The position numbers and the translations under genes were made by a program. Of a stretch of 45,566 bases of DNA, positions 2,447 to 20,198 are shown in pieces. The DNA comes from a virus, in IMG/VR virus record IMGVR_UViG_3300005910_000001, positions 1-45,566 of that record; one strand, written 5' to 3'. Numbering within the stretch: the first letter of the stretch is position 1; each line of letters begins with the position of its first letter. Below the pieces are notes generated by a model. The model ran no database searches. It saw nothing but the letters and a program-made list of their open reading frames with translations, and was not told the DNA's origin.

Positions 2447-5400
2447 ATGGCAACAGATTGGAAAACCCTACTTGAAATAAGACAGAAATATGGGATACCT
2501 ATATCATCACTGCAACCGCCACCTTTGACTGAGTTTAACAAGCGGTTGCAATCAAATCAGACACAAGCTACGAATTATAATACTCGCTTGGGTGCTATTA
2601 ACGAAGATGTTGCGCCTGAAGAAACTAAAAAAAAGAACTGGTTTTTCAAGGCTATTGAAGCAATAGATAAACCTCGTAACGCTGTATGGAACGCACTTGA
2701 GGACTCTGCTAAAGGAGAGAACTCTTTTATGCAGGGTCTTAAAGAAGGTTGGACAGGTGAAGAGAAGTACTATGGTACTGACCTCATGGAAGACTTCGGC
2801 GTTAAGAATAAGTTTGCCAAAGGTGTCGGAGGCTTCGCGGCTGAGGCAATACTAGACCCGTTGAACCTCGTATCATTAGGTGCAGGTTCTTTTACAAAGG
2901 GAGCATTAACAGGCTCAGCTAAGACGCTGACACGCGAGGGTGCCGAACAGTTAGCTAAGGCAGCACTAAGAGAGGTGTCCGAAACAGCAATTAGAAAAAG
3001 TGCTAAGTTTGCAGGTAAGAGTGTAAAAGGTGGTGTTATCCGTAACGCAATGAAGACGGGCGCAGGCGGTATACTTAAAGGATTGGGCGCTAGTACGGAT
3101 GATATGTTACGTTTAGCAAAGTCAAGTATCGCAAACTCAGCGGATAGTGCTAGGTTATGGGATGACATACTGGATACTGCAACCAATGCTATACAGAAAA
3201 ACCAAGACATACTATTAAAATCTAAGGGGCGTGGGTTGAAGATCGCGGGCAAAGAATTTGCAACCGCGGGTAAGATGCAGGACCTCGGTGCAGCGCTGAA
3301 CAAAAAAGTACTTGGCGCAGATAATATTGTGGGTAAGACAGCCACTAAATTTAACGACATGGTGTCTACTGTGTTTAGTTCTAAGCATATCTCAGGGGTT
3401 GACAAGAATACACAGAAGATATTTAAGATACTTGAACAACGTAAGAAAGGTGCTAGGCACCTACTCGACTCAGGAACAGAGAAACAATACAAGCAGTTCC
3501 TTGACGTACTCGGAAGGCACAGCAAGGAAGACTTCGATAAATATGATAAGACCTTAATGAACATACTTGAGGGTAGGGTTACTCTTGATAAAGTGCCTGA
3601 TGACATCAAGACAGTGTATATGGACATAGCCAAAAACCTCGAAGATATTGGCTTGAGCGAAACAGCTATAATGAAACTTAAAAAGCAGGCTAAGAACTAT
3701 GCACCTCATGTTCAGGCATGGGACTTATCTAAAGGAGACCAGGAGATACTGCAGAAGTTCGCACGAGGCGGGGATAGTGGCACAGGCTTTGATGTTTATA
3801 ACCGTGCTGCACAGGCTAGAAAGTTCGGAGATGATGTAGATGTATCTAACATACTTATTAACTTCGACACTTCAGGCGACGCGGCAAGGCGGGCGTACCT
3901 AAACTCTATAGCTAACCAGGTTCCTTCGCGTGTTATGGACATACGTAAAGTTCGTAAGTACTCCGACTTAACAGGCATATTAGCTGACGAGGGCATCAAA
4001 GGCACAGCAGCTTACAACATATTGTCACGAAATGCTGATGGCTTAGACGGTGTATCAGGGTTCTTTGAAACATCAGCAGTTAAATCATGGATGTCACGTG
4101 CGCTGCAGCATAATAAAATTATATCTGAAGCAGGCTTTATAGAGGATGTTAAGTCTGCGTTTGGGCGAACCATAAGAAATGTAGACGAGATACGCGACGC
4201 GCGTAGGGCAGGTCAAGTTATAGTAATGCCTCAATCATACGCTAAGAAAGCGCGTATAGACGAGAATATATTACAACAACTTAAGTCATTCCAGGCGGAC
4301 CCGTTATCTCCGTACTTAACACTTGATGATGATGAAGTTAATTTAATTATGAAATATTTTGGGCAGACAGGACAGCTATCCAATCCACTTAGAAGTGGTG
4401 ACATGGTAGCATTGCCGAAGGGCATGGTCCAAAAGATAAATGGTTCTGCGCGTGCACAGACTGAAGCAGGCACGAAAGCACTAACCAAGATGGTAGATAA
4501 GTTCTATTCATTGTGGAAACCTACTGTTACAGGCTTGAGACCTGACTATCACATACGAAATCTATTTGGCTCGACTATGAATAATATGTACGATGTAGGC
4601 TTTAAAGCTATTGACCCTAAGACGCAGGGTATGGCTGCTAAGGTGTTACGTAAAGCCACAAAAAATACTGACAGTATAGAGTTAGGTGGGACACGATTTA
4701 CTGTGGGTGAAATAAGAGACCAAATTGAGAAACAAGCTGTTAAGATGAACCTTCACATTGCCGAGTTCGGCGATGTCGCAAAGACACATCAGATAAAGTT
4801 CGCGCGTGCGCAAGATGGCACTTTGCAGAACATAGCTAGGCATCCGCTACACGGTGCTGCTGAGGCAGGTAAAGCTGTTGGCGAAACTATAGAAGGACAG
4901 GTTCGTACAAGTAACTTCTTAGCTAACGTTGATACATTCTTAGGTAATGGGATGTCAGTCGATGCCGCGTTTGAAGCCGCGGGTGAACAGGTACGAAAGT
5001 ACCATTTTGATTATGGTGATTTGACCAATGCAGAGATTAAAGGTATACGTAGATTGCTACCTTTCTATACATGGTTCAGGAAGAACGCACCGTTGCAGTT
5101 AGAAGAACTGCTGAATAAGCCAGTACGTGCTACATTTGTTAATAAGTGGAACCGTAACATTTCAGCGGCGGAAGGGTATGACCTTACCGACCTGCCTGAT
5201 TATGTTCAAGAAAACATGGCACTTGCAATGCCTAGACTTGGTCTTGGTATGACAGACGAGGATAACATACCTATGGCAAACATAGGTGTTCCACAGGCTG
5301 ACCTCGCTATGCTAGGTTCTCCTGGGTTTGGGCGTGACTTAGCTAGTATGTCTAATCCGTTGCTTAAGGCACCGATTGAAATGTTAATGAATCAAAACAT

Positions 5401-5869
5401 GATGACAGGCGCACCTATATACAGTAATGAATATGAGAAGGGTGAAAAACTAGCCAAACATGCGCAACAGCAGTTCGGAATAGTTAATGACATCGCTCAG
5501 ACTATTAGCCCGCGCGACTACGAAGGCGCCACAATGAAGCCACAGTTTGAGGGGTCTCCACTTAGAATAACTAATTCGCTATTCAAAGAGTTTGATAGTC
5601 AAGAAGCTAAACTTGATGCTTCGTATTCATACAACCGTGCACTTGCTAACAAGGTACAGTATCTTAAGTCTCAAGGAGTTCCTGTGCCTGACCTTAACAA
5701 GATGGATATAGAGATGATACAGCAGTTATCGGATGAAGACATCGAGATGATTAAAGAACTCGGTGAGTTCCCTGCAGTATTCTATAAGAATAGAACTACG
5801 GCACTGCCGTCTGATGAACGCAGTACGTTCTCGCAGGCGCTTGAAAAGTACAGGTCGGGAATGTATTAA
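2447..5869 (+). CDS. Large internal virion / DNA-ejection-type protein (1140 aa)
   Basis: This is the longest protein in the genome. It is mostly helical, with Ala/Gly/Lys-rich stretches at about residues 120 to 280. Near residue 880 there is a Leu-Pro-Phe-Tyr-Thr-Trp-Phe-Arg-Lys segment followed by Leu-Gln-Leu-Glu-Glu-Leu. That pattern resembles the helical modules of large polyvalent or ejection proteins of short-tailed phages (LPD38-like). No protease or lysozyme motif is evident. It is the last late gene and converges with the early operon, whose final stop (5878) is only eight bases away, with no terminator between them. The likely job is to form part of the internal core or a trans-envelope conduit. 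The class is fairly secure but the mechanism is inference. Confidence 0.62.
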   Translation: MATDWKTLLEIRQKYGIPISSLQPPPLTEFNKRLQSNQTQATNYNTRLGAINEDVAPEETKKKNWFFKAIEAIDKPRNAVWNALEDSAKGENSFMQGLKEGWTGEEKYYGTDLMEDFGVKNKFAKGVGGFAAEAILDPLNLVSLGAGSFTKGALTGSAKTLTREGAEQLAKAALREVSETAIRKSAKFAGKSVKGGVIRNAMKTGAGGILKGLGASTDDMLRLAKSSIANSADSARLWDDILDTATNAIQKNQDILLKSKGRGLKIAGKEFATAGKMQDLGAALNKKVLGADNIVGKTATKFNDMVSTVFSSKHISGVDKNTQKIFKILEQRKKGARHLLDSGTEKQYKQFLDVLGRHSKEDFDKYDKTLMNILEGRVTLDKVPDDIKTVYMDIAKNLEDIGLSETAIMKLKKQAKNYAPHVQAWDLSKGDQEILQKFARGGDSGTGFDVYNRAAQARKFGDDVDVSNILINFDTSGDAARRAYLNSIANQVPSRVMDIRKVRKYSDLTGILADEGIKGTAAYNILSRNADGLDGVSGFFETSAVKSWMSRALQHNKIISEAGFIEDVKSAFGRTIRNVDEIRDARRAGQVIVMPQSYAKKARIDENILQQLKSFQADPLSPYLTLDDDEVNLIMKYFGQTGQLSNPLRSGDMVALPKGMVQKINGSARAQTEAGTKALTKMVDKFYSLWKPTVTGLRPDYHIRNLFGSTMNNMYDVGFKAIDPKTQGMAAKVLRKATKNTDSIELGGTRFTVGEIRDQIEKQAVKMNLHIAEFGDVAKTHQIKFARAQDGTLQNIARHPLHGAAEAGKAVGETIEGQVRTSNFLANVDTFLGNGMSVDAAFEAAGEQVRKYHFDYGDLTNAEIKGIRRLLPFYTWFRKNAPLQLEELLNKPVRATFVNKWNRNISAAEGYDLTDLPDYVQENMALAMPRLGLGMTDEDNIPMANIGVPQADLAMLGSPGFGRDLASMSNPLLKAPIEMLMNQNMMTGAPIYSNEYEKGEKLAKHAQQQFGIVNDIAQTISPRDYEGATMKPQFEGSPLRITNSLFKEFDSQEAKLDASYSYNRALANKVQYLKSQGVPVPDLNKMDIEMIQQLSDEDIEMIKELGEFPAVFYKNRTTALPSDERSTFSQALEKYRSGMY

Positions 5870-5877
5870 ATAACATA

Positions 5878-6156
5878 TTATGTGCTGAAATACTTAGCGA
5901 ACACGCTAGGTAAAGGCATCACTGTGATTAACATTTCACCGTCAAACGCAAACACTCTGTTGTTGAATATGATTAAGTCTTGGTGGTGTCCGTACTTGTG
6001 CCACAGTGAGTCTACGTACTTACGTATACTTCCATTTAAGGCAGTACGGTGCACCCCACGTGCAAGAGCGAGTTCGGCTTGTCTAATTGCCGCTCTTTTA
6101 GGTATGCCGATGCGCTCTTTTATACGTTTGTAAGCATGTCTGCTTAGTATTACCAG
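5878..6156 (-). CDS. Conserved-looking small protein lacking a canonical start codon
   Basis: An open frame of about 100 codons reads leftward to a TAA at 5878. Its translation looks like a genuine folded protein: a basic helix (Ala-Tyr-Lys-Arg-Ile-Lys-Glu-Arg-Ile-Gly-Ile), then a segment ending Lys-Tyr-Val-Asp-Ser-Leu-Trp, then beta strands (Leu-Ile-Ile-Phe-Asn-Asn, Leu-Ile-Thr-Val) and Pro-Leu-Pro near the end. This layout recalls small DUF4258/toxin-like phage proteins, but I cannot name the family. No ATG or TTG lies upstream in frame, and the first GTG would remove about a third of the protein. CTG at 6156, overlapping the stop of the previous gene, is used here as a provisional start. 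A frameshift from the preceding gene or a sequence error is also possible. Confidence 0.5.
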   Translation of the reverse strand: MVILSRHAYKRIKERIGIPKRAAIRQAELALARGVHRTALNGSIRKYVDSLWHKYGHHQDLIIFNNRVFAFDGEMLITVMPLPSVFAKYFST

Positions 6157-14188: not shown

Positions 14189-14624
14189 CAGCCTCCTCGA
14201 TACTCTTTAGTGTGTCATATATAGCGCTTGCCTCCACAACGTCGAGTACCCACTCTGTCATTTGTTCCATGTGTACTGCTAGTAGCTTAGTCATAGCAGA
14301 CAACCTTACATCTAACTTATCATCTTCACTCATTGTAGCTAGTATGTCTATGAGCGAGATGTACAGAGTGCCAACAACTACGCTCATGTCGGGGAACTTA
14401 GAGTACAGCGTGTCCATTACGTCTATGAGCAGGGTTGCTTGCCGTTGGTTCTCCAACGCAATAGGCTTGAGATGTTTCTCAAACTCACCTGACTCGATAA
14501 GAGGTAACGCTTTTAGCTGCGCTCGTTCCTTGTATAGCTTAGCGTTGCGCATTTCGTCTGCCATAGCACGTACCTTAGTACTGTGTATGTTTTCAACAAT
14601 GCTAAACTTTGGTTTGTTTTCCAT
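14172..14624 (-). CDS. Helical protein (150 aa), unknown function
   Basis: The 150-residue protein is almost entirely helical, with an acidic C-terminus. It shows no enzyme motif, signal peptide or membrane segment. Its ATG follows AAAGGACACA and overlaps the end of the AbrB-type gene. It is co-transcribed between a regulator and the SNF2 helicase. No family was recognised. Confidence 0.65.
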   Translation of the reverse strand: MENKPKFSIVENIHSTKVRAMADEMRNAKLYKERAQLKALPLIESGEFEKHLKPIALENQRQATLLIDVMDTLYSKFPDMSVVVGTLYISLIDILATMSEDDKLDVRLSAMTKLLAVHMEQMTEWVLDVVEASAIYDTLKSIEEADDVTS

Positions 14625-14838
14625 TGTGTCCTTTCTTCAATCGGTCTACATGCACCATGCTCCCACATTCTCCACACTCATAGAGTGCTACTGTTGGAGT
14701 AAGGGTTATGCTCCCCGCTACTGTGTAGTCTACTTCAAATTTAGTTCCCGCATCATAGCCTAAAAACCTTCTGACTTCCGCAGGTAGGACTACTCTACCA
14801 TGTTGGTCTATGCGTGTTGTTTGTATATACTTTTTCAT
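14602..14838 (-). CDS. AbrB/SpoVT-type transcription regulator with Cys-x2-Cys tail
   Basis: The start is the ATG at 14838, with GGAGGTG five bases upstream. Residues 1 to 48 form a swapped-hairpin AbrB domain (Thr-Arg-Ile-Asp-Gln-His-Gly-Arg-Val-Val-Leu-Pro, then Leu-Gly-Tyr-Asp-Ala-Gly-Thr), a dimeric DNA-binding fold typical of Bacillota regulators. The C-terminal part adds Glu-Cys-Gly-Glu-Cys-Gly and a His/Lys-rich end, suggesting a metal knuckle. It could repress or switch early transcription. An extended -10 promoter lies just upstream, which fits autoregulation, though no operator is proven. The 78-residue length is normal. Confidence 0.85.
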   Translation of the reverse strand: MKKYIQTTRIDQHGRVVLPAEVRRFLGYDAGTKFEVDYTVAGSITLTPTVALYECGECGSMVHVDRLKKGHNGKQTKV

Positions 14839-14854
14839 GCTCACCTCCCCCATA

Positions 14855-14891: not shown

Positions 14892-15566
14892 CTAAAATGT
14901 CACCGCCACCATGCGTTCACAGTCAAAAAACATCTCGTACCAGACCACGTCGTCTGCGTTACGTTGTATTCTTATAACTTGCCACGCTTTGAACGAGGCG
15001 AGCATGTTAGCTGTCGCTCCTACTGATACCGAGGTGCCGCACATCGACTTCTCTGCTTCTTCATCTGTGTACAGTGTTTCTATATACAACTTTACCTTAC
15101 GGGTACTGTACATAGGTATGAAATACACTCGTATGCTGTCTCCTCCCATGCGTCCGTCGATAACATACTTAACATTCTTGTTACGTTGTAGTTCATCAAA
15201 TATCTCAGCACGTGCACTCATTGTGTCTACTGCTAAGTACACCACTGTAGATGTTTCCGCCTTAGCGTGCTCGGCTGTGTACCTTTCGTTGTGCGCTATT
15301 ATTGTGTTACATAACCTGTAGCTTCCTAGTCTATCTTGAAGTGCATTAACCTTCAGCTTGCCAACGTCATCAGGTGTGTATAATTGGTTAGGTATGTTAC
15401 GTTCCTCAACCACGTCGAAGTCATATACGTGCATACTTTCAACACCCATCTTAGCTAGGTTGTACACTAGGTGCGAGCCTCCCGCTCCGACACCTATCAC
15501 AGTTACGCTGTGTTCTTTGTTAAACGCTACACGATTGAACGTGTGCGTCTGTCTTGCAAAATTCAT
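14892..15566 (-). CDS. ThiF/E1-like ubiquitin-like-protein activating enzyme
   Basis: This enzyme of the ThiF/MoeB/E1 fold should adenylate the C-terminus of a ubiquitin-like protein using ATP. The 224-residue product shows the nucleotide loop Gly-Val-Gly-Ala-Gly-Gly-Ser (25 to 31), Asp49-Phe-Asp, the Arg56-Asn57-x3-Gln61 segment, Lys72, and the Asp114 that coordinates magnesium in Ala-Val-Asp-Thr-x-x-Ala-Arg. Cys176, in Met-Cys-Gly-Thr-Ser-Val-Ser, is the candidate thioester cysteine. The start is the ATG at 15566, overlapping the previous TGA and preceded by GGAG; the upstream TTG was rejected. It is the last gene of the Ubl, E2-like, JAB, SH3-like, E1 cassette. The fold is secure, and its pairing with the cassette is inferred from order and complementarity. 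Confidence 0.88.
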   Translation of the reverse strand: MNFARQTHTFNRVAFNKEHSVTVIGVGAGGSHLVYNLAKMGVESMHVYDFDVVEERNIPNQLYTPDDVGKLKVNALQDRLGSYRLCNTIIAHNERYTAEHAKAETSTVVYLAVDTMSARAEIFDELQRNKNVKYVIDGRMGGDSIRVYFIPMYSTRKVKLYIETLYTDEEAEKSMCGTSVSVGATANMLASFKAWQVIRIQRNADDVVWYEMFFDCERMVAVTF

Positions 15567-15766
15567 TCTATACTCCAATCAGGTACGTTAGGTTTACGTA
15601 CCAACTCAAATCTATCTAGCCTGTATTCATACCCCTCGCTATCATACAAGTTCACTCCAAAAATACCATCGTCTCTTGCACTACCGACAGGGTATATATC
15701 TCCTGTATTAAGGTAATTAGTACCGTCCGAGTCAATACATCGTATTCTGTCGCCACGCTTAAACAT
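15563..15766 (-). CDS. Small SH3-like protein with Pro-Asp-Trp-Ser tail (67 aa)
   Basis: The 67-residue product is beta-rich (Phe-Lys-Arg-Gly-Asp-Arg-Ile-Arg-Cys-Ile-Asp, a Tyr-rich middle, then Arg-Phe-Glu-Leu-Val), the pattern of small SH3-like barrels common in Gram-positive phages. It ends Asn-Val-Pro-Asp-Trp-Ser-Ile-Glu. The same tail occurs in three unrelated or distantly related proteins at 18791, 19177 and 19415, and the 19177 product is a clear paralogue. It is embedded between the JAB peptidase and E1-like genes, overlapping both, which suggests a job connected with the conjugation cassette (inference). Confidence 0.72.
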   Translation of the reverse strand: MFKRGDRIRCIDSDGTNYLNTGDIYPVGSARDDGIFGVNLYDSEGYEYRLDRFELVRKPNVPDWSIE

Positions 15767-16655
15767 TAGATGCTAAGTCTTCATCGGGTACCATATAGGT
15801 GAGCGTGTTCTCTATGTTACGTCGCCACAAGTTACCGTCTGCATCTATCCACCCCTTGTTTACTTCATCCCATTCCCATGTGGCATCAGGTATGTCTACC
15901 ATTACGTATGCCTTAGGCTCGATGTATTTGTCCTCAATAGGTGTTGCTTTGCCCCATACATTAACATCCTTATCAAACTCATCTCTCCACCATTGCTTAT
16001 TGTAGTTTGGTGTCAAGTAGTCGTCATAGCAGTAGTTACTCCCATGCCATTTGTATGGTTTGCTTGGTAGCTTAACAACTTTGGTAGCTAGTTCACTCTT
16101 TATGAACTCTTCATACGAGTTGTATGCGTGGTCTACTATCCACGGAACATCCATATACAACAGTCCTGCCTCTGCGTCAGAGTAGTCGAACTGTCTATCG
16201 CCTTTCTTGTTAGCGCGTGATACCAGGAACCATTTACATATGCCGTTCTGACTGAACAGCTTTGTCATGTCCTCGTCAGCTGTAGATTGAAACACTCCCA
16301 TGTTTACGTGTGAATGTCCGCAACCTCGCAGTCTCTCGTTAACCGCTTCAAGTTCATCAAAGTTATTTCCGAAACTATCAGCAAACTTCAGCCACGCATC
16401 ATCTGTAAAGTCAAATGTTGCGCCTGTAACAGTCTGCTCTAATATGTGGATGTCATGTATCGTGAGTATTACTTTGTTCTTTATAACATCACGTGTGACT
16501 TCTTCCATCCAACCTACTTCCTTGTCTGCTAAGTCAACGATTGTGTTCACCTTCATGTATGCCTTAGGCTTAACTAAGACAACAACCTCCTTTGGACTGG
16601 TGTGCACAACCTTTGTAGTAGCGTCTCTTCTTTCCTTATGCCACTTCATCGTCAT
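15759..16655 (-). CDS. JAB/MPN (JAMM) metallopeptidase, deubiquitinase-like
   Basis: The 298-residue protein carries an exact JAMM signature: His114-Ser-His116, seven residues, Ser124, two residues, Asp127. Glu46 in Lys-Glu-Val-Gly-Trp-Met is a suitable upstream catalytic glutamate. This zinc site cleaves isopeptide bonds or trims ubiquitin-like C-termini in eukaryotic Rpn11/AMSH and in bacterial Ubl operons. About 120 residues follow the core, Trp/Tyr/Asp-rich and of unknown fold. It overlaps the E2-like gene by 20 bases and the SH3-like gene by eight. It could mature the Ubl encoded at 18414 by removing the Glu that follows its last Gly, or reverse conjugation. The motif is seen directly; the substrate is inferred. 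Confidence 0.87.
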   Translation of the reverse strand: MTMKWHKERRDATTKVVHTSPKEVVVLVKPKAYMKVNTIVDLADKEVGWMEEVTRDVIKNKVILTIHDIHILEQTVTGATFDFTDDAWLKFADSFGNNFDELEAVNERLRGCGHSHVNMGVFQSTADEDMTKLFSQNGICKWFLVSRANKKGDRQFDYSDAEAGLLYMDVPWIVDHAYNSYEEFIKSELATKVVKLPSKPYKWHGSNYCYDDYLTPNYNKQWWRDEFDKDVNVWGKATPIEDKYIEPKAYVMVDIPDATWEWDEVNKGWIDADGNLWRRNIENTLTYMVPDEDLASNV

Positions 16656-18336
16656 CCCTCACTTCCTTTATGTATTCTGCGTCAATGCTGCACCCTATTG
16701 CATATGTAACATACCCTGGATTGCTACCAGTAGTTACTGCACATTCCACATTCCTATCCGCCACATGCGAATAAGTCAGTTGTTCTGCATCACTGATTAT
16801 GTCATCGTAACTAAATTTTACATACTTGTCGTATGTACAATCAATATATAGGTTCATACGCGAGTACTTGTTGTACCCTATGTGCTTCATAAACTTAGTA
16901 GCTGTTGACACCACTGCATCCTCGTCTGTGTCTACTGGGACTGGTATACAAAATGACCCGACGTTGGGACCATGTATTTTACATACCTTGATGTCTCCCT
17001 CGTAGTTTGCAGGCACAAGTGCTAACTCAATAAAGGTGTTCCATATCTTAGCAATCTCACAACTCCAAAGAAGCCCTCTGTCTTGCCCGCTTATGTCTAT
17101 GAAGTGGTACAGCGGGTAGTTTTTACCCCATGTGTCGTTAGGGTCTGCTGTCTCTAGGAATACGAGCATGTAGTCTACTATGTCATCGTATCTACCCTCA
17201 GAGAATAGGTCAGGGAACACCTCACCTGCATTGCCTGCACACATCTCTCCTGCTGTGTTTTGTATATGTGGGTGCGGAGCAATATTATCTCCTTCTATTA
17301 AGTTCTTTGTGTACATGTGCCCATCGTATAAGAATTTTGTGCTTATTCTGTTAGGCAAGGAGTATCGTACACCCTTTACACGCATCTCCACATTCTTGTA
17401 CACAACGTTTATTTCATTCTCATTTATGTCAACACTCTCCACCTTAGCAATATTACGTATAACATCTAGCTGTGGTGTGAGGTCTATTTCCTTAGTTGTT
17501 GATGCAAGTTTGCTCTCATACTTCTCCTTAGTGTCCCCGTATGTAACCAATTGCGCTTTAAGGTCTCTTATTTGCTTCAGTCTATATGTAACTTGGTCCT
17601 CTGCGTTCTTAAGTGCGTCCTCGTATGTCTTGTATGCAGGGTTAATGAAGTGCTTAACAAAGTTGTCAACCCGTTTGTTGAACGCGTCGTCTAACTCTCC
17701 GCTATCCCTCTTAGTAACCATGAACTCGCATATAGTTTGCTTGAACGATTCAAAGTAATCAGCTGCATACTTAACTAACTTAGTTCTTGCAGCGATTATG
17801 TCGTCGCCTTGCTCTTCGTGTGTCCAACGCACATCTTCGTGCATTACGTCCATCATTTCCCTGTGAAAAGGCACGACTCTTAGTGTGCATGTGTTCTTAT
17901 CCCACGCTGCTATAGGCACGTTAACTGAGTGTATCCCCAACATTTCGTTAAGCTGCGCAAACTTTACGTCGTTGCTCGCTTGTATAATCTCATAGCTGTT
18001 AAAACTATCTGCCAACGTCATCACGTCTGAGTGTGTTGCTATCTTAAACTCAAACGGATCAGGCATGTATATTAACTCTCCTTCGGGAGGGTGTAACACT
18101 TCTACTCCGTATGTAGCCATGTCAAACACACTTAATGGTGCTTCTCTACCTATCAAGGCGTGTGTTGTGCCATTGTATGCGGTGTACTTCTCACCAAATC
18201 TCCATGGGTGTAACCGTCCGTGCATAATCTCAACGGCTACCTCTCCTGTGCTTCTTGCAATCCCAGGGTTGTGCTCTGTTATAGTGTAATTAGGTAACAC
18301 TCCCGCAAGCGCATCTTTTAAATATTCAGGTAGCAT
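16636..18336 (-). CDS. E2-like (UBC-fold) conjugating protein with long extensions
   Basis: This 566-residue protein has an apparent E2 core at about residues 305 to 405. Beta strands (Val-Arg-Tyr-Ser-Leu-Pro, Phe-Leu-Tyr-Asp-Gly-His) lead to Pro-His-Pro-His-Ile at 354 to 358, then Cys366 in Glu-Met-Cys-Ala-Gly. The E2 pattern is His-Pro-Asn followed about eight residues later by the catalytic Cys. A helix then ends in Ala-Asp-Pro-Asn near 400, matching the Glu-Pro-Asn seen after E2 cysteines. The first 230 residues are of unknown fold, 235 to 285 looks coiled-coil, and about 150 unknown residues follow the core. Such size is unusual for an E2. It lies between the Ubl and JAB genes. PRTRC-B-like proteins are the nearest concept I know. 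Confidence 0.72.
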   Translation of the reverse strand: MLPEYLKDALAGVLPNYTITEHNPGIARSTGEVAVEIMHGRLHPWRFGEKYTAYNGTTHALIGREAPLSVFDMATYGVEVLHPPEGELIYMPDPFEFKIATHSDVMTLADSFNSYEIIQASNDVKFAQLNEMLGIHSVNVPIAAWDKNTCTLRVVPFHREMMDVMHEDVRWTHEEQGDDIIAARTKLVKYAADYFESFKQTICEFMVTKRDSGELDDAFNKRVDNFVKHFINPAYKTYEDALKNAEDQVTYRLKQIRDLKAQLVTYGDTKEKYESKLASTTKEIDLTPQLDVIRNIAKVESVDINENEINVVYKNVEMRVKGVRYSLPNRISTKFLYDGHMYTKNLIEGDNIAPHPHIQNTAGEMCAGNAGEVFPDLFSEGRYDDIVDYMLVFLETADPNDTWGKNYPLYHFIDISGQDRGLLWSCEIAKIWNTFIELALVPANYEGDIKVCKIHGPNVGSFCIPVPVDTDEDAVVSTATKFMKHIGYNKYSRMNLYIDCTYDKYVKFSYDDIISDAEQLTYSHVADRNVECAVTTGSNPGYVTYAIGCSIDAEYIKEVRDDDEVA

Positions 18337-18371
18337 AAGCGTACCTCCTTCTTTAATTCATGTGTAAACAC

Positions 18372-18396
18372 CCTGCCCCGTATCATACGAGGCAGG
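18372..18396 (-). terminator. Intercistronic hairpin between Ubl and E2-like genes
   Basis: An 11-pair stem (one G-T pair) with a three-base loop lies between the Ubl stop and the E2-like start. No long U-tract follows, so it is either an inefficient terminator or an RNA-processing/stability element. Either would let the Ubl be made in excess over its enzymes. Confidence 0.5.
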
Positions 18397-18413
18397 CGGG
18401 TTACATGGTTTAA

Positions 18414-18659
18414 CTATTCACCCTTGATTTTCACTGCTACAAGCAGTCTGCCCATGTCATCCTCATCAGTAAGTTCGGTGTCTATGTCAACCGCTTCACT
18501 GTTGAGTTTGTAAGTGGACTCAGACCAGTCAATAGTCTGTCCGTCGCTGATGTCAGCGGCTCCCAATGCAGTCGTAACTACATCTTTAACTGTGTCTCCT
18601 TCTTCTGCTTCTACCATTTTGCTTGTTCCAGGCATGAATAAAACTTTAATATTGAGCAT
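18414..18659 (-). CDS. Ubiquitin-like (beta-grasp) protein ending Gly-Glu
   Basis: The 81-residue protein has the size and strand order of a beta-grasp ubiquitin-like protein. A first hairpin (Ile-Lys-Val-Leu-Phe, then Lys-Met-Val-Glu-Ala) is followed by a helix after Asp-Thr-Val-Lys-Asp-Val-Val, a middle segment, and a last strand Leu-Leu-Val-Ala-Val-Lys-Ile-Lys leading to the C-terminal Gly-Glu. In Ubl pathways the last Gly is activated by E1, and a short extension may first be clipped by a JAB peptidase. Here only one residue would need removal. It opens the conjugation cassette, has its own candidate promoter and a GGAGAGGAG ribosome site, and is followed by a hairpin. The assignment rests on fold pattern plus context; sequence identity to ubiquitin is negligible. 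Confidence 0.65.
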   Translation of the reverse strand: MLNIKVLFMPGTSKMVEAEEGDTVKDVVTTALGAADISDGQTIDWSESTYKLNSEAVDIDTELTDEDDMGRLLVAVKIKGE

Positions 18660-18790: not shown

Positions 18791-19180
18791 TTAGATTTTG
18801 CTCCAATCAGGTATGTTACTACGCCCCATTGTCACGTTGTCGTAGCCCTCATTTTCCAGGTTATGTGTCCACATGTTATGTTCTAACTCGACTGCCCCCT
18901 CATCCATAAGAGCATGTATCTGTTCCTTAGACATACTGTTATCGCTGAATCTATCATGTATTTCATCAACACCACTCGCAAAGCCTCTCCCCTTCATCAC
19001 ACTGGTCTCACTAACCTTACTTGTTATGTGTAATAGTGCCTCTGTGTGGTTAGCTGATGTGTAATATGTAATCACAATGCCTCCAATTTTGTCGTTGCTG
19101 TTGTCATTCACGAATGACAAGTGTGTCCCTGGTTTTATCAGGTTTGCACGCAAGTACTCTTGAAACTGCTCATATGTCAT
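18791..19180 (-). CDS. Unknown protein (129 aa) with Pro-Asp-Trp-Ser tail
   Basis: The start is the ATG at 19180, overlapping the TGA of the previous gene and using the GGAG in that gene's conserved end as ribosome site. The product has an N-terminal helix, beta strands (Ile-Gly-Gly-Ile-Val-Ile-Thr-Tyr) and an acidic helical C-terminal half ending Asn-Ile-Pro-Asp-Trp-Ser-Lys-Ile. The tail is shared with the proteins at 15563, 19177 and 19415. It is the last gene before the Ubl cassette promoter. No family recognised. Confidence 0.68.
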   Translation of the reverse strand: MTYEQFQEYLRANLIKPGTHLSFVNDNSNDKIGGIVITYYTSANHTEALLHITSKVSETSVMKGRGFASGVDEIHDRFSDNSMSKEQIHALMDEGAVELEHNMWTHNLENEGYDNVTMGRSNIPDWSKI

Positions 19181-19413
19181 AATGTGCTCCAATCAGGTTT
19201 GTTTTCATTTACCTTAACAAACCGTGACACATGGTACTCCATGCCCCTATACTCAGCACCTTCTATTCTTACGCGATACCCATAGCCATTGTTATACACC
19301 TCTTTAGCTGTGTATTCTTCTGATAGAATTAACTTCGAGGTTCCTACGGGATCTACGCATCGAAGTGTGTCGCCTGCTTTAAACTTAGGAACCTTGTGTG
19401 TTATAGTAGCCAT
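19177..19413 (-). CDS. SH3-like small protein with Pro-Asp-Trp-Ser tail (78 aa)
   Basis: The start is the ATG at 19413, preceded by GGAGTGAGG; the longer frame begins with a poorer codon. It is a paralogue of the SH3-like protein at 15563: both have Phe-Lys-x-Gly-Asp-x-x-Arg-Cys near the start, Gly-Thr-x-x-Leu, a Tyr-rich centre, Arg-Phe-x-x-Val and then Asn-x-Pro-Asp-Trp-Ser. Such small beta-barrels are frequent in phage genomes but are rarely assigned a role. It overlaps its downstream neighbour by four bases. Confidence 0.7.
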   Translation of the reverse strand: MATITHKVPKFKAGDTLRCVDPVGTSKLILSEEYTAKEVYNNGYGYRVRIEGAEYRGMEYHVSRFVKVNENKPDWSTL

Positions 19414-19414
19414 A

Positions 19415-19792
19415 TCACACCTCACTCCAATCAGGTTTGTTATCTGCTATTACCTCAAGTTCATTTGCCCTAATAAACCATCCTGACTCTAGCTCACCAT
19501 ATGAGTTAAGGTACTCCCCAAGCTCTTCATCAGGTAGCCTTTCGTCACACTCCGTTATTGATAGGTGGCTCTTTACGTTGCCGAACAGCTCGCCACTGTC
19601 ATCATCTTCTGTGAACTTCACAAGTACTAAATTACCAGGGATATCAACCGTCCCTATCAGTGCTATAACTGTGCACTCAGGTCTGTATTCCTCCATTAAA
19701 GGTGTCACCATACCTGTGTCAGTGCTCGTGTTTTGGCTTATTACACACTTAGCACCTACCCTTTTATCTCTGTCTACGTCTTTTAATAACAT
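19415..19792 (-). CDS. Unknown acidic protein (125 aa) with Pro-Asp-Trp-Ser tail
   Basis: The start is taken at the ATG at 19792 rather than the GTG at 19801. The N-terminal half is beta-rich with a Cys in Ala-Lys-Cys-Val-Ile; the second half is acidic and ends Trp-Phe-Ile-Arg-Ala-Asn-Glu-Leu-Glu-Val followed by Asn-Lys-Pro-Asp-Trp-Ser-Glu-Val. Its last codons contain the GGAG used by the following gene. It is possibly an elaborated SH3-like barrel related to the 19177 product at the C-terminal strand. Function unknown. Confidence 0.68.
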   Translation of the reverse strand: MLLKDVDRDKRVGAKCVISQNTSTDTGMVTPLMEEYRPECTVIALIGTVDIPGNLVLVKFTEDDDSGELFGNVKSHLSITECDERLPDEELGEYLNSYGELESGWFIRANELEVIADNKPDWSEV

Positions 19793-19793
19793 A

Positions 19794-20198
19794 TTACACA
19801 CTCACTTCCACTATAGTATCGTCATTACATACATAGTACCTCTCGTTATCTTCCGCCCTGTCTCTTCCTAAGTCGTCGAAGTCAATGTACTGATACATCC
19901 AATCCGCACAGTCACCACTGCCCTCAACGTCGCCTTTGCCTAATTCTTCATATGTTTCAAACTCACAGTACACGGTGAGTGAATCGTATTCCTGATACTC
20001 CCGTACTACTTCCCATAGGTGAGAATCACATATACCAGTGTCATTCCACGAAGACATAAGAGTTTCCATCTCATCGAAGTCGCCCCACGACGGGGTGCCA
20101 CTTACAATACCGTTTTGTAAGTTCTCTCTCTCCTGATACCATAGTGCGCACATTGTGTTAAAAAGTTCAATGTGGTCCATATCTCCTGCTTCTCTCAT
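19794..20198 (-). CDS. Very acidic small protein (134 aa), unknown
   Basis: The product is strongly acidic, with many Asp and Glu, aromatic residues and several Cys and Trp, and it has no lysine beyond a single one near residue 88. It lacks a signal peptide or enzyme motif. Strongly acidic early phage proteins are sometimes DNA mimics that block host nucleoid or defence proteins, but that is only a suggestion from composition. The ATG overlaps the previous stop as ATGA. Confidence 0.65.
   Translation of the reverse strand: MREAGDMDHIELFNTMCALWYQERENLQNGIVSGTPSWGDFDEMETLMSSWNDTGICDSHLWEVVREYQEYDSLTVYCEFETYEELGKGDVEGSGDCADWMYQYIDFDDLGRDRAEDNERYYVCNDDTIVEVSV

Follow-up and report, generated by a model that had tools for sequence, protein, structure and literature searches.

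Ubiquitin-like protein (Ubl) conjugation in bacteria has been studied mainly as a form of anti-phage immunity. Here we analyse five minus-strand genes of a viral contig of 45.6 kb (IMG/VR record IMGVR_UViG_3300005910_000001; its full 45,566 nucleotides are hereafter the window), at positions 14892-18659, which a first-pass annotation made from the letters of the window had read as a ubiquitin-like conjugation cassette carried by a phage. Our results support that interpretation, and we consider it likely that the cassette is a phage-encoded system for both conjugation and deconjugation of a Ubl.

Among the described systems, Bil (BilABCD) has the same set of Ubl, E1, E2 and JAB deubiquitinase. 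BilA carries two tandem Ubl domains that are processed by the JAB enzyme BilC before activation, BilB has Cys138 followed by Glu, His and His (CEHH), and BilD combines inactive and active adenylation domains with a Cys domain (PMC11354881). In archaea, SAMPs are conjugated without any E2 (PMC11354881). Iyer 2006 sorted bacterial E1/E2/JAB/Ubl operons into classes 6a-6e, of which class 6e combines a polyUbl of two to three repeats, an E2 that is inactive and a fused JAB-E1 protein (PMC1779556). The phage members in that survey were the lambda/T1 tail proteins TAPI, a Ubl, and TAPK, a JAB protein (PMC1779556).

Results

The cassette is carried by a phage. PHROG profiles match TerL, portal and major head protein, with the structural genes on the opposite strand to the cassette, and the window also encodes PolA, a primase, an SNF2 helicase and a phage endonuclease; the cassette lies within the phage replication operon. 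All five genes of the first-pass annotation were found as intact open reading frames (ORFs) in the reported place, and the five-gene observation is real. In the direction of transcription, with lengths in amino acids (aa), the features are:

18414..18659, minus strand, Ubl modifier, 81 aa, C-terminus ...VKIKGE (window-free profile, AlphaFold, Foldseek)
18372..18396, minus strand, hairpin between Ubl and E2, stem of 11 bp (RNA folding energy -25.2 kcal/mol, z = -2.74)
16636..18336, minus strand, E2-like protein, 566 aa (translation, AlphaFold, window-free profile 2.1e-5)
17092..17478, minus strand, UBC/E2-like domain, aa 287-415 of the E2-like protein (hhalign; predicted local distance difference test, pLDDT, about 85-97)
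17239..17241, minus strand, predicted catalytic Cys codon, Cys366 of the E2-like protein (conservation)
15759..16655, minus strand, JAB/JAMM metallopeptidase, 298 aa (window-free profile 3.1e-32; JAMM residues)
15563..15766, minus strand, SH3-like protein, 67 aa, C-terminus VPDWSIE (PHROG DNA-binding/unknown 6.4e-5)
14892..15566, minus strand, E1/ThiF-type adenylating enzyme, 224 aa, single adenylation domain (Pfam ThiF 6.9e-20)

Most of the genes overlap, as had been reported: E2 and JAB by 20 nucleotides (nt), JAB and SH3 by 8 nt, and SH3 and E1 by 4 nt, the Ubl gene lying 77 nt upstream of E2. Good ribosome-binding sites precede both Ubl and E2. The hairpin between them has no strong T-run and was not called as a terminator; it is possible that it acts as an attenuator or processing site keeping Ubl in excess. 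E1 starts at an ATG overlapping the SH3 stop codon (ATGA), an alternative TTG start at 15578 being less likely. The SH3-like protein is translationally coupled to E1.

As a chance test, profiles made solely from other phages (window-free profiles) were run against the 671 six-frame ORFs of the window. The top ORF was the Ubl gene for the Ubl profile (2.6e-8), the E2 gene for the E2 profile (2.1e-5) and the JAB gene for the JAB profile (3.1e-32), with runner-up ORFs at 0.67, 0.086 and 0.018, respectively. Chance motifs are therefore rejected, since such profiles single out exactly these three proteins. Pfam, NCBIfam and PADLOC recognised neither the Ubl, the E2 nor the JAB of the window, and ThiF was the sole cassette component to pass a Pfam cut-off.

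Each of the four enzymatic and modifier components was then compared with its own family. The first-pass annotation had called the 81-residue protein beta-grasp-like, and this was borne out: the AlphaFold model (pLDDT 84.6) has the order beta-beta-alpha-beta, Foldseek against the PDB places ubiquitin structures on top (probability 1.00, TM 0.67-0.72), and the family profile matches SAMP2 (6.7e-6) and also RnfH, MoaD and TtuB. A larger family profile finds the window Ubl at E=1e-10. Gly80 is conserved across the family alignment and in the window is followed by one Glu; it is predicted to be the activated residue after loss of this last residue.

The E2-like protein consists of a badly predicted N-terminus, a coiled coil (aa 177-280), the UBC-like domain (aa 287-415) and an additional C-terminal region. 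The HPH-to-Cys arrangement reported for it is present as H355-P-H (355-357) ... C366-x-G368, with the N/D motif DPND, and Cys366 is nearly invariant in 43 family members and invariant in the trimmed domain alignment. The AlphaFold model has the order alpha-beta(4+)-active site-alpha-alpha. With hhalign, the UBC region of the family aligned to three human E2s (E 2.4e-6), pairing HPH with HPN, Cys366 with the catalytic Cys and DPND with NPDD; of the human sequences, UBE2D2 was checked against the PDB. Without the window sequence the value was 1.2e-6, and reversed, shuffled and unrelated controls reached 0.079 at best. Moreover, Pfam UQ_con is matched by 2/27 E2 family members (best 1.5e-4). Against the PDB the full-length E2 profile found coiled coils only, a profile trimmed to the UBC domain gave no significant match, and the E2 call therefore rests on profile-profile comparison.

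The peptidase has the exact JAMM motif that had been claimed for it, E46 ... H114-S-H116-x7-S124-x2-D127, in which E46, H114, S115, H116, S124 and D127 are invariant in 39 members. Its family profile matches RPN11 (1.1e-4), CSN5, BRCC36 and archaeal JAMM1, and the protein, whose JAMM site is complete, resembles Rpn11-type deubiquitinases. Similarly, the E1 holds all key nucleotide residues: across 104 phage E1s, conservation is 96% or more for each of G25, G27, D49, D51, N57, Q61, K72, D114, R119 and R139, and also for C176, which reaches 98%. In NCBIfam it is nearest to ThiF models and falls under the cut-off of every E1 family.

We then placed the locus among the described systems. Membership of Bil was rejected, as the CEHH order and the E1 with two adenylation domains were not found; the phage HPH precedes Cys366 as in eukaryotic E2s, whereas in BilB, by description, His comes after Cys. 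Moreover, Bil is a bacterial defence operon whereas this cassette is phage-borne, and a host Bil operon on a prophage was rejected because the JAB family hardly occurs in the bacterial genomes sampled. PRTRC likewise joins a Ubl, an E2-like protein, JAB and ThiF on mobile elements. Its membership was rejected, the E1 scoring 56.1 bits against a cut-off of 144.75 and the other three proteins being unmatched by the PRTRC A, B and C models; no ParB-type or PRTRC E/F partner was recognised among the window proteins scanned, some small ORFs lying outside that scan. Type II CBASS, which has a fused E1-E2 Cap2, a Cap3 JAB and a CD-NTase, was rejected because E1 and E2 are separate genes here, the E1 matching E1-E2 models in their E1 portion only, and a PADLOC search of window proteins found no CD-NTase. 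In contrast to class 6e, the phage E1, E2 and JAB are separate and the E2 retains His and Cys. Lambda/T1 TAPI and TAPK also set a phage Ubl beside a JAB domain, but they belong to tail assembly and lack both E1 and E2, whereas the cassette is an early-region set with both; a lambda-type tail Ubl was rejected given the position in the replication operon with the structural genes on the other strand.

Eukaryotic ubiquitin (UBE2D2, Rpn11, polyubiquitin genes) shares with the phage families the E2 HPx...C and NxxD motifs, a JAMM deubiquitinase and tandem Ubl precursors, but sequence identity is very low, the phage E1 is single-domain and no E3 was recognised in the window. The archaeal SAMP2/UbaA/JAMM1 system has a single-domain E1 and a JAMM enzyme as well, and SAMP2 is the nearest solved Ubl by sequence; it differs in that an E2-like protein is conserved in the phage cassette. 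By analogy, the cassette would work like the Bil, eukaryotic ubiquitin and SAMP2 systems.

To what extent is the cassette shared by other viruses? Neither tblastn searches of phage records with the E2 and JAB of the window nor scans of viral contigs with single proteins gave matches, and relatives were reached only through E1 and later family alignments. The E1 alignment led to 42 viral contigs and the JAB alignment to 80 contigs of the 112 found, leaving 111 after duplicate removal (L numbers below). All four families are present on 43 of these, E2, JAB and E1 on 32, and JAB and E1 on 27, the last being mostly crass- and Fpv-type contigs in which an HxH...C protein takes the place of E2. In the subset of contigs retrieved with JAB only, E1 is found in 66/69, E2 in 61/69 and a Gly-tailed Ubl in 33/69, with a median E1-JAB gap of 13 nt. 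Gene orders are E2-JAB-E1 (32), Ubl-E1-JAB-E2 (22), E2-JAB-E1-Ubl (8) and Ubl-E2-JAB-E1 (6). The last is the order of the window and also occurs in MT835544 (human faeces). A single PHROG model found terminase in 22/50 of cassette contigs, and the neighbouring genes across contigs serve replication and recombination (PolA, DnaB, primase, topoisomerase, Sak4, PDDEXK). Versions occur in named phages, among them Flavobacterium FpV4, crass-like phages and Xanthomonas/Erwinia jumbo phages, whose E1s are annotated 'thiamine biosynthesis protein'. The gene set recurs in many phages and is widespread as a viral module.

By comparison, when 84,980 species of bacteria and archaea were scanned for the JAB motif, 6 loci were returned, all on metagenome-assembled contigs. 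JAB profile searches of 396 and 399 genomes from two phyla gave two matches each, the seed genome included in each, and plasmid records held no JAB match. In the open-access literature we found no description of such a phage cassette; subscription papers and preprints were outside the scope, and priority is therefore not proven. Yutin 2021 makes no mention of such a cassette.

Several relatives encode tandem Ubls, and others carry a reverse transcriptase (RT):

L048:2264-2896, three tandem Ubls, each ending KQIKGN
L047:7432-7863, L058:1347-1775 and L104:7821-8267, two tandem Ubls with KGN junctions
L110:7448-7861, two tandem Ubls with RGA junctions
L051, L053, L057, L060, L063, L066, L074, L081 and L105, examples of RT-bearing contigs

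The tandem Ubls, and likewise the single Ubls in which one or two residues follow the terminal G, argue for proteolytic exposure of the Gly, for which JAB would be the obvious enzyme. The RT (RVT_1, YADD box; nearest to retron type II-A RTs) lies 3' of E1 in 32 related contigs, at a distance of 13 to about 2,300 nt, a link to a Ubl cassette that looks unreported. No Rfam retron RNA was found in the six RT-type contigs scanned, and the window itself has no RT. In 30/31 RT-type contigs a Ubl relative of ~75 aa is encoded upstream of E2 (e.g. L057:4009-4236, L066:4012-4239; hhalign 1.6e-9 to the Ubl family).

Further variation was seen among the relatives. CxxC Cys-rich regions, C-terminal or internal, occur in the E2-like proteins of L005, L006, L018, L004, L079 and L129; these are possible zinc or RING-like modules and could be a built-in E3. 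L047 and L049 have two E2-like genes per single E1/JAB, and in one L049 copy Val replaces Cys, possibly making it an inactive partner. In the Xanthomonas jumbo phage PV764601.1 a GG-ending Ubl-like protein (L004:2736-3158) adjoins an 892-aa HPH...C E2-like protein (3238-5916) and an E1, with no adjacent JAB recognised. L002:2529-3290, L003:2664-3533 and L130:7454-8455 have beta-grasp-like N-termini (by eye for L002 and L003) on long tails, some of which resemble SAP/HeH-type DNA-binding domains. L046, a contig classed viral, encodes a PRTRC C-like Ubl (L046:2459-2668, ending GTKG by eye) and a ThiF gene (L046:6692-7585), and plasmid-type PRTRC may thus occur on viral or misclassified contigs too.

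The SH3-like gene, which the first-pass annotation had counted as part of the set, is present and intact in the window and is no general member across relatives; in L005-L007, E1 is followed by a larger protein in which SH3-like repeats were recognised by eye. Its C-terminus is one of four of the form xPDWSxx in small minus-strand proteins of the window (15563-15766, 18791-19192, 19177-19425 and 19415-19801). In at least two of the four cases the PDWS codons GATTGGAG form the ribosome-binding site of the next overlapping gene. PDWS as a tag motif was therefore rejected, since the ribosome-binding site held in the codons GAT TGG AG is the simpler explanation for at least 2/4, and this overlap may explain the conservation of PDWS. 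Just 3' of E1 is a gene for a MazE/AbrB-type DNA-binding protein (14602-14853, minus strand), for which no toxin partner was recognised.

Discussion

The E2-like protein, E1 and JAB travel together (66/69 for E1, 61/69 for E2), which argues for a system of conjugation and deconjugation. The sequences show the genes with their motifs, homology, association and phage setting; from these we infer the following catalytic steps and targets. The cassette would be expressed together with the replication genes. JAB would trim the Ubl precursor after its conserved Gly, removing one Glu in the case of the window, and would split the tandem repeats of poly-Ubl relatives. The single-domain ThiF-type E1 would then adenylate the Ubl Gly in an ATP-dependent manner and hand it over, probably through Cys176. 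The E2-like protein would accept the Ubl as a thioester on Cys366 and attach it to target proteins from early infection, a choice in which its coiled coil and tail may take part. JAB would also strip the tag, making the modification reversible. The first-pass annotation had suggested modification of host factors, disarming of host defence or modification of phage proteins; genomic context leans towards a part in the replication programme of the phage. Given the position of the cassette in the replication operon, the likeliest targets would be phage replication and recombination proteins or those of the host that are encountered in this phase.

A number of observations weigh against this reading. 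No E3 was recognised in the window, the catalytic chemistry is inferred from homology, and the E1 is one 224-aa ThiF domain without the second adenylation domain and Cys domain of BilD. The window Ubl ends with a single G, not GG. The window's own E2 has no Pfam match and its model is mostly low-confidence outside aa 160-415; searched whole with Foldseek, it retrieved no UBC structure from the PDB and one uncharacterised phage protein (1e-5) among viral models. The UBC fold that had been proposed for the 566-residue protein is therefore moderately supported: hhalign and the two relatives matching UQ_con speak for an E2/UBC-like domain related to eukaryotic E2s, and Foldseek does not. Lastly, RT-type Ubls mostly end like ...VVKANNA, without a C-terminal Gly; conjugation through Gly cannot apply in this large sub-clade and not every relative works in this way.

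An unlikely alternative is counter-defence, in which the Ubl and enzymes of the phage would block or take over host Ubl-based immunity (Bil, Bub or CBASS Cap2), for example by a decoy Ubl or JAB cleavage of host conjugates. Bil and type II CBASS share E1/E2/JAB chemistry in bacterial immunity, giving phages a motive, and the operon position makes early expression plausible. However, a decoy or a protease would need less than a full set in which E1 and E2 are both present and conserved, and the JAB profile matches almost nothing in the sampled bacterial genomes, so that the JAB does not seem borrowed from host systems. Moreover, the cassette is linked to replication genes, and these replication and recombination neighbours favour a replication-phase role over a purely anti-defence one.

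It is quite unlikely that the cassette is instead a Bil-like defence or exclusion system that the phage directs against competing phages. Its four component types are those of Bil, and retrons, whose RT type follows E1 in the 32 related contigs, are often defence systems. Yet the cassette is inside the replication operon and not in an accessory hot spot, almost never occurs in bacterial genomes, and in PADLOC shows broad E1 and helicase similarity only, with no defence gene otherwise.

We regard as very unlikely a sulfur carrier like ThiS, MoaD or SAMP2, on which E1 would form a thiocarboxylate and which JAB would free, for thiolation of phage tRNA, bases or a cofactor. The nearness of the E1 to ThiF models and the matches of the Ubl profile to SAMP2, MoaD, TtuB and RnfH are in keeping with it, and SAMP2 and TtuB serve both sulfur transfer and conjugation. 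Against this, 61/69 contigs have an E2-like protein, whose Cys is almost invariant, tandem poly-Ubl genes hardly make sense for a carrier, and no ThiS/MoaD pathway partner (sulfur donor or acceptor enzymes such as sulfurtransferase, MoaE or ThiG) was found among the window proteins scanned against PHROGs. Finally, a replication or partition accessory like plasmid PRTRC, which has the same four components, an E1 match to PRTRC_ThiF (3.3e-15) and the replication context in its favour, is highly improbable given the sub-threshold E1 score, the lack of PRTRC A, B or C matches for Ubl, E2 and JAB, of a recognised ParB-type partner and of plasmid matches to JAB.

Taken together, a phage-encoded system of reversible Ubl conjugation is the reading we prefer. 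We also put forward, with the balance even between acceptance and doubt, that tailed phages own a widespread Ubl tagging system (E1, HPx-Cys E2, JAMM and sometimes poly-Ubl) apart from bacterial immunity and serving viral replication, one branch of which has joined to a retron-type RT and a Gly-less Ubl. A full, compact and virus-centred set that is common in phages would reverse the picture of such chemistry as anti-phage immunity, and suggests that reversible tagging of proteins serves the phages' own cycle. The 'thiamine biosynthesis protein' genes of known phages are probably the E1s of such a system, and their annotation would need correction. Crass-like phages of Bacteroides and Fpv phages of Flavobacterium would offer small, cultivable test systems. 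Moreover, the HPx-Cys E2 site and the poly-Ubl precursors bear on the origin of eukaryotic ubiquitin chemistry.

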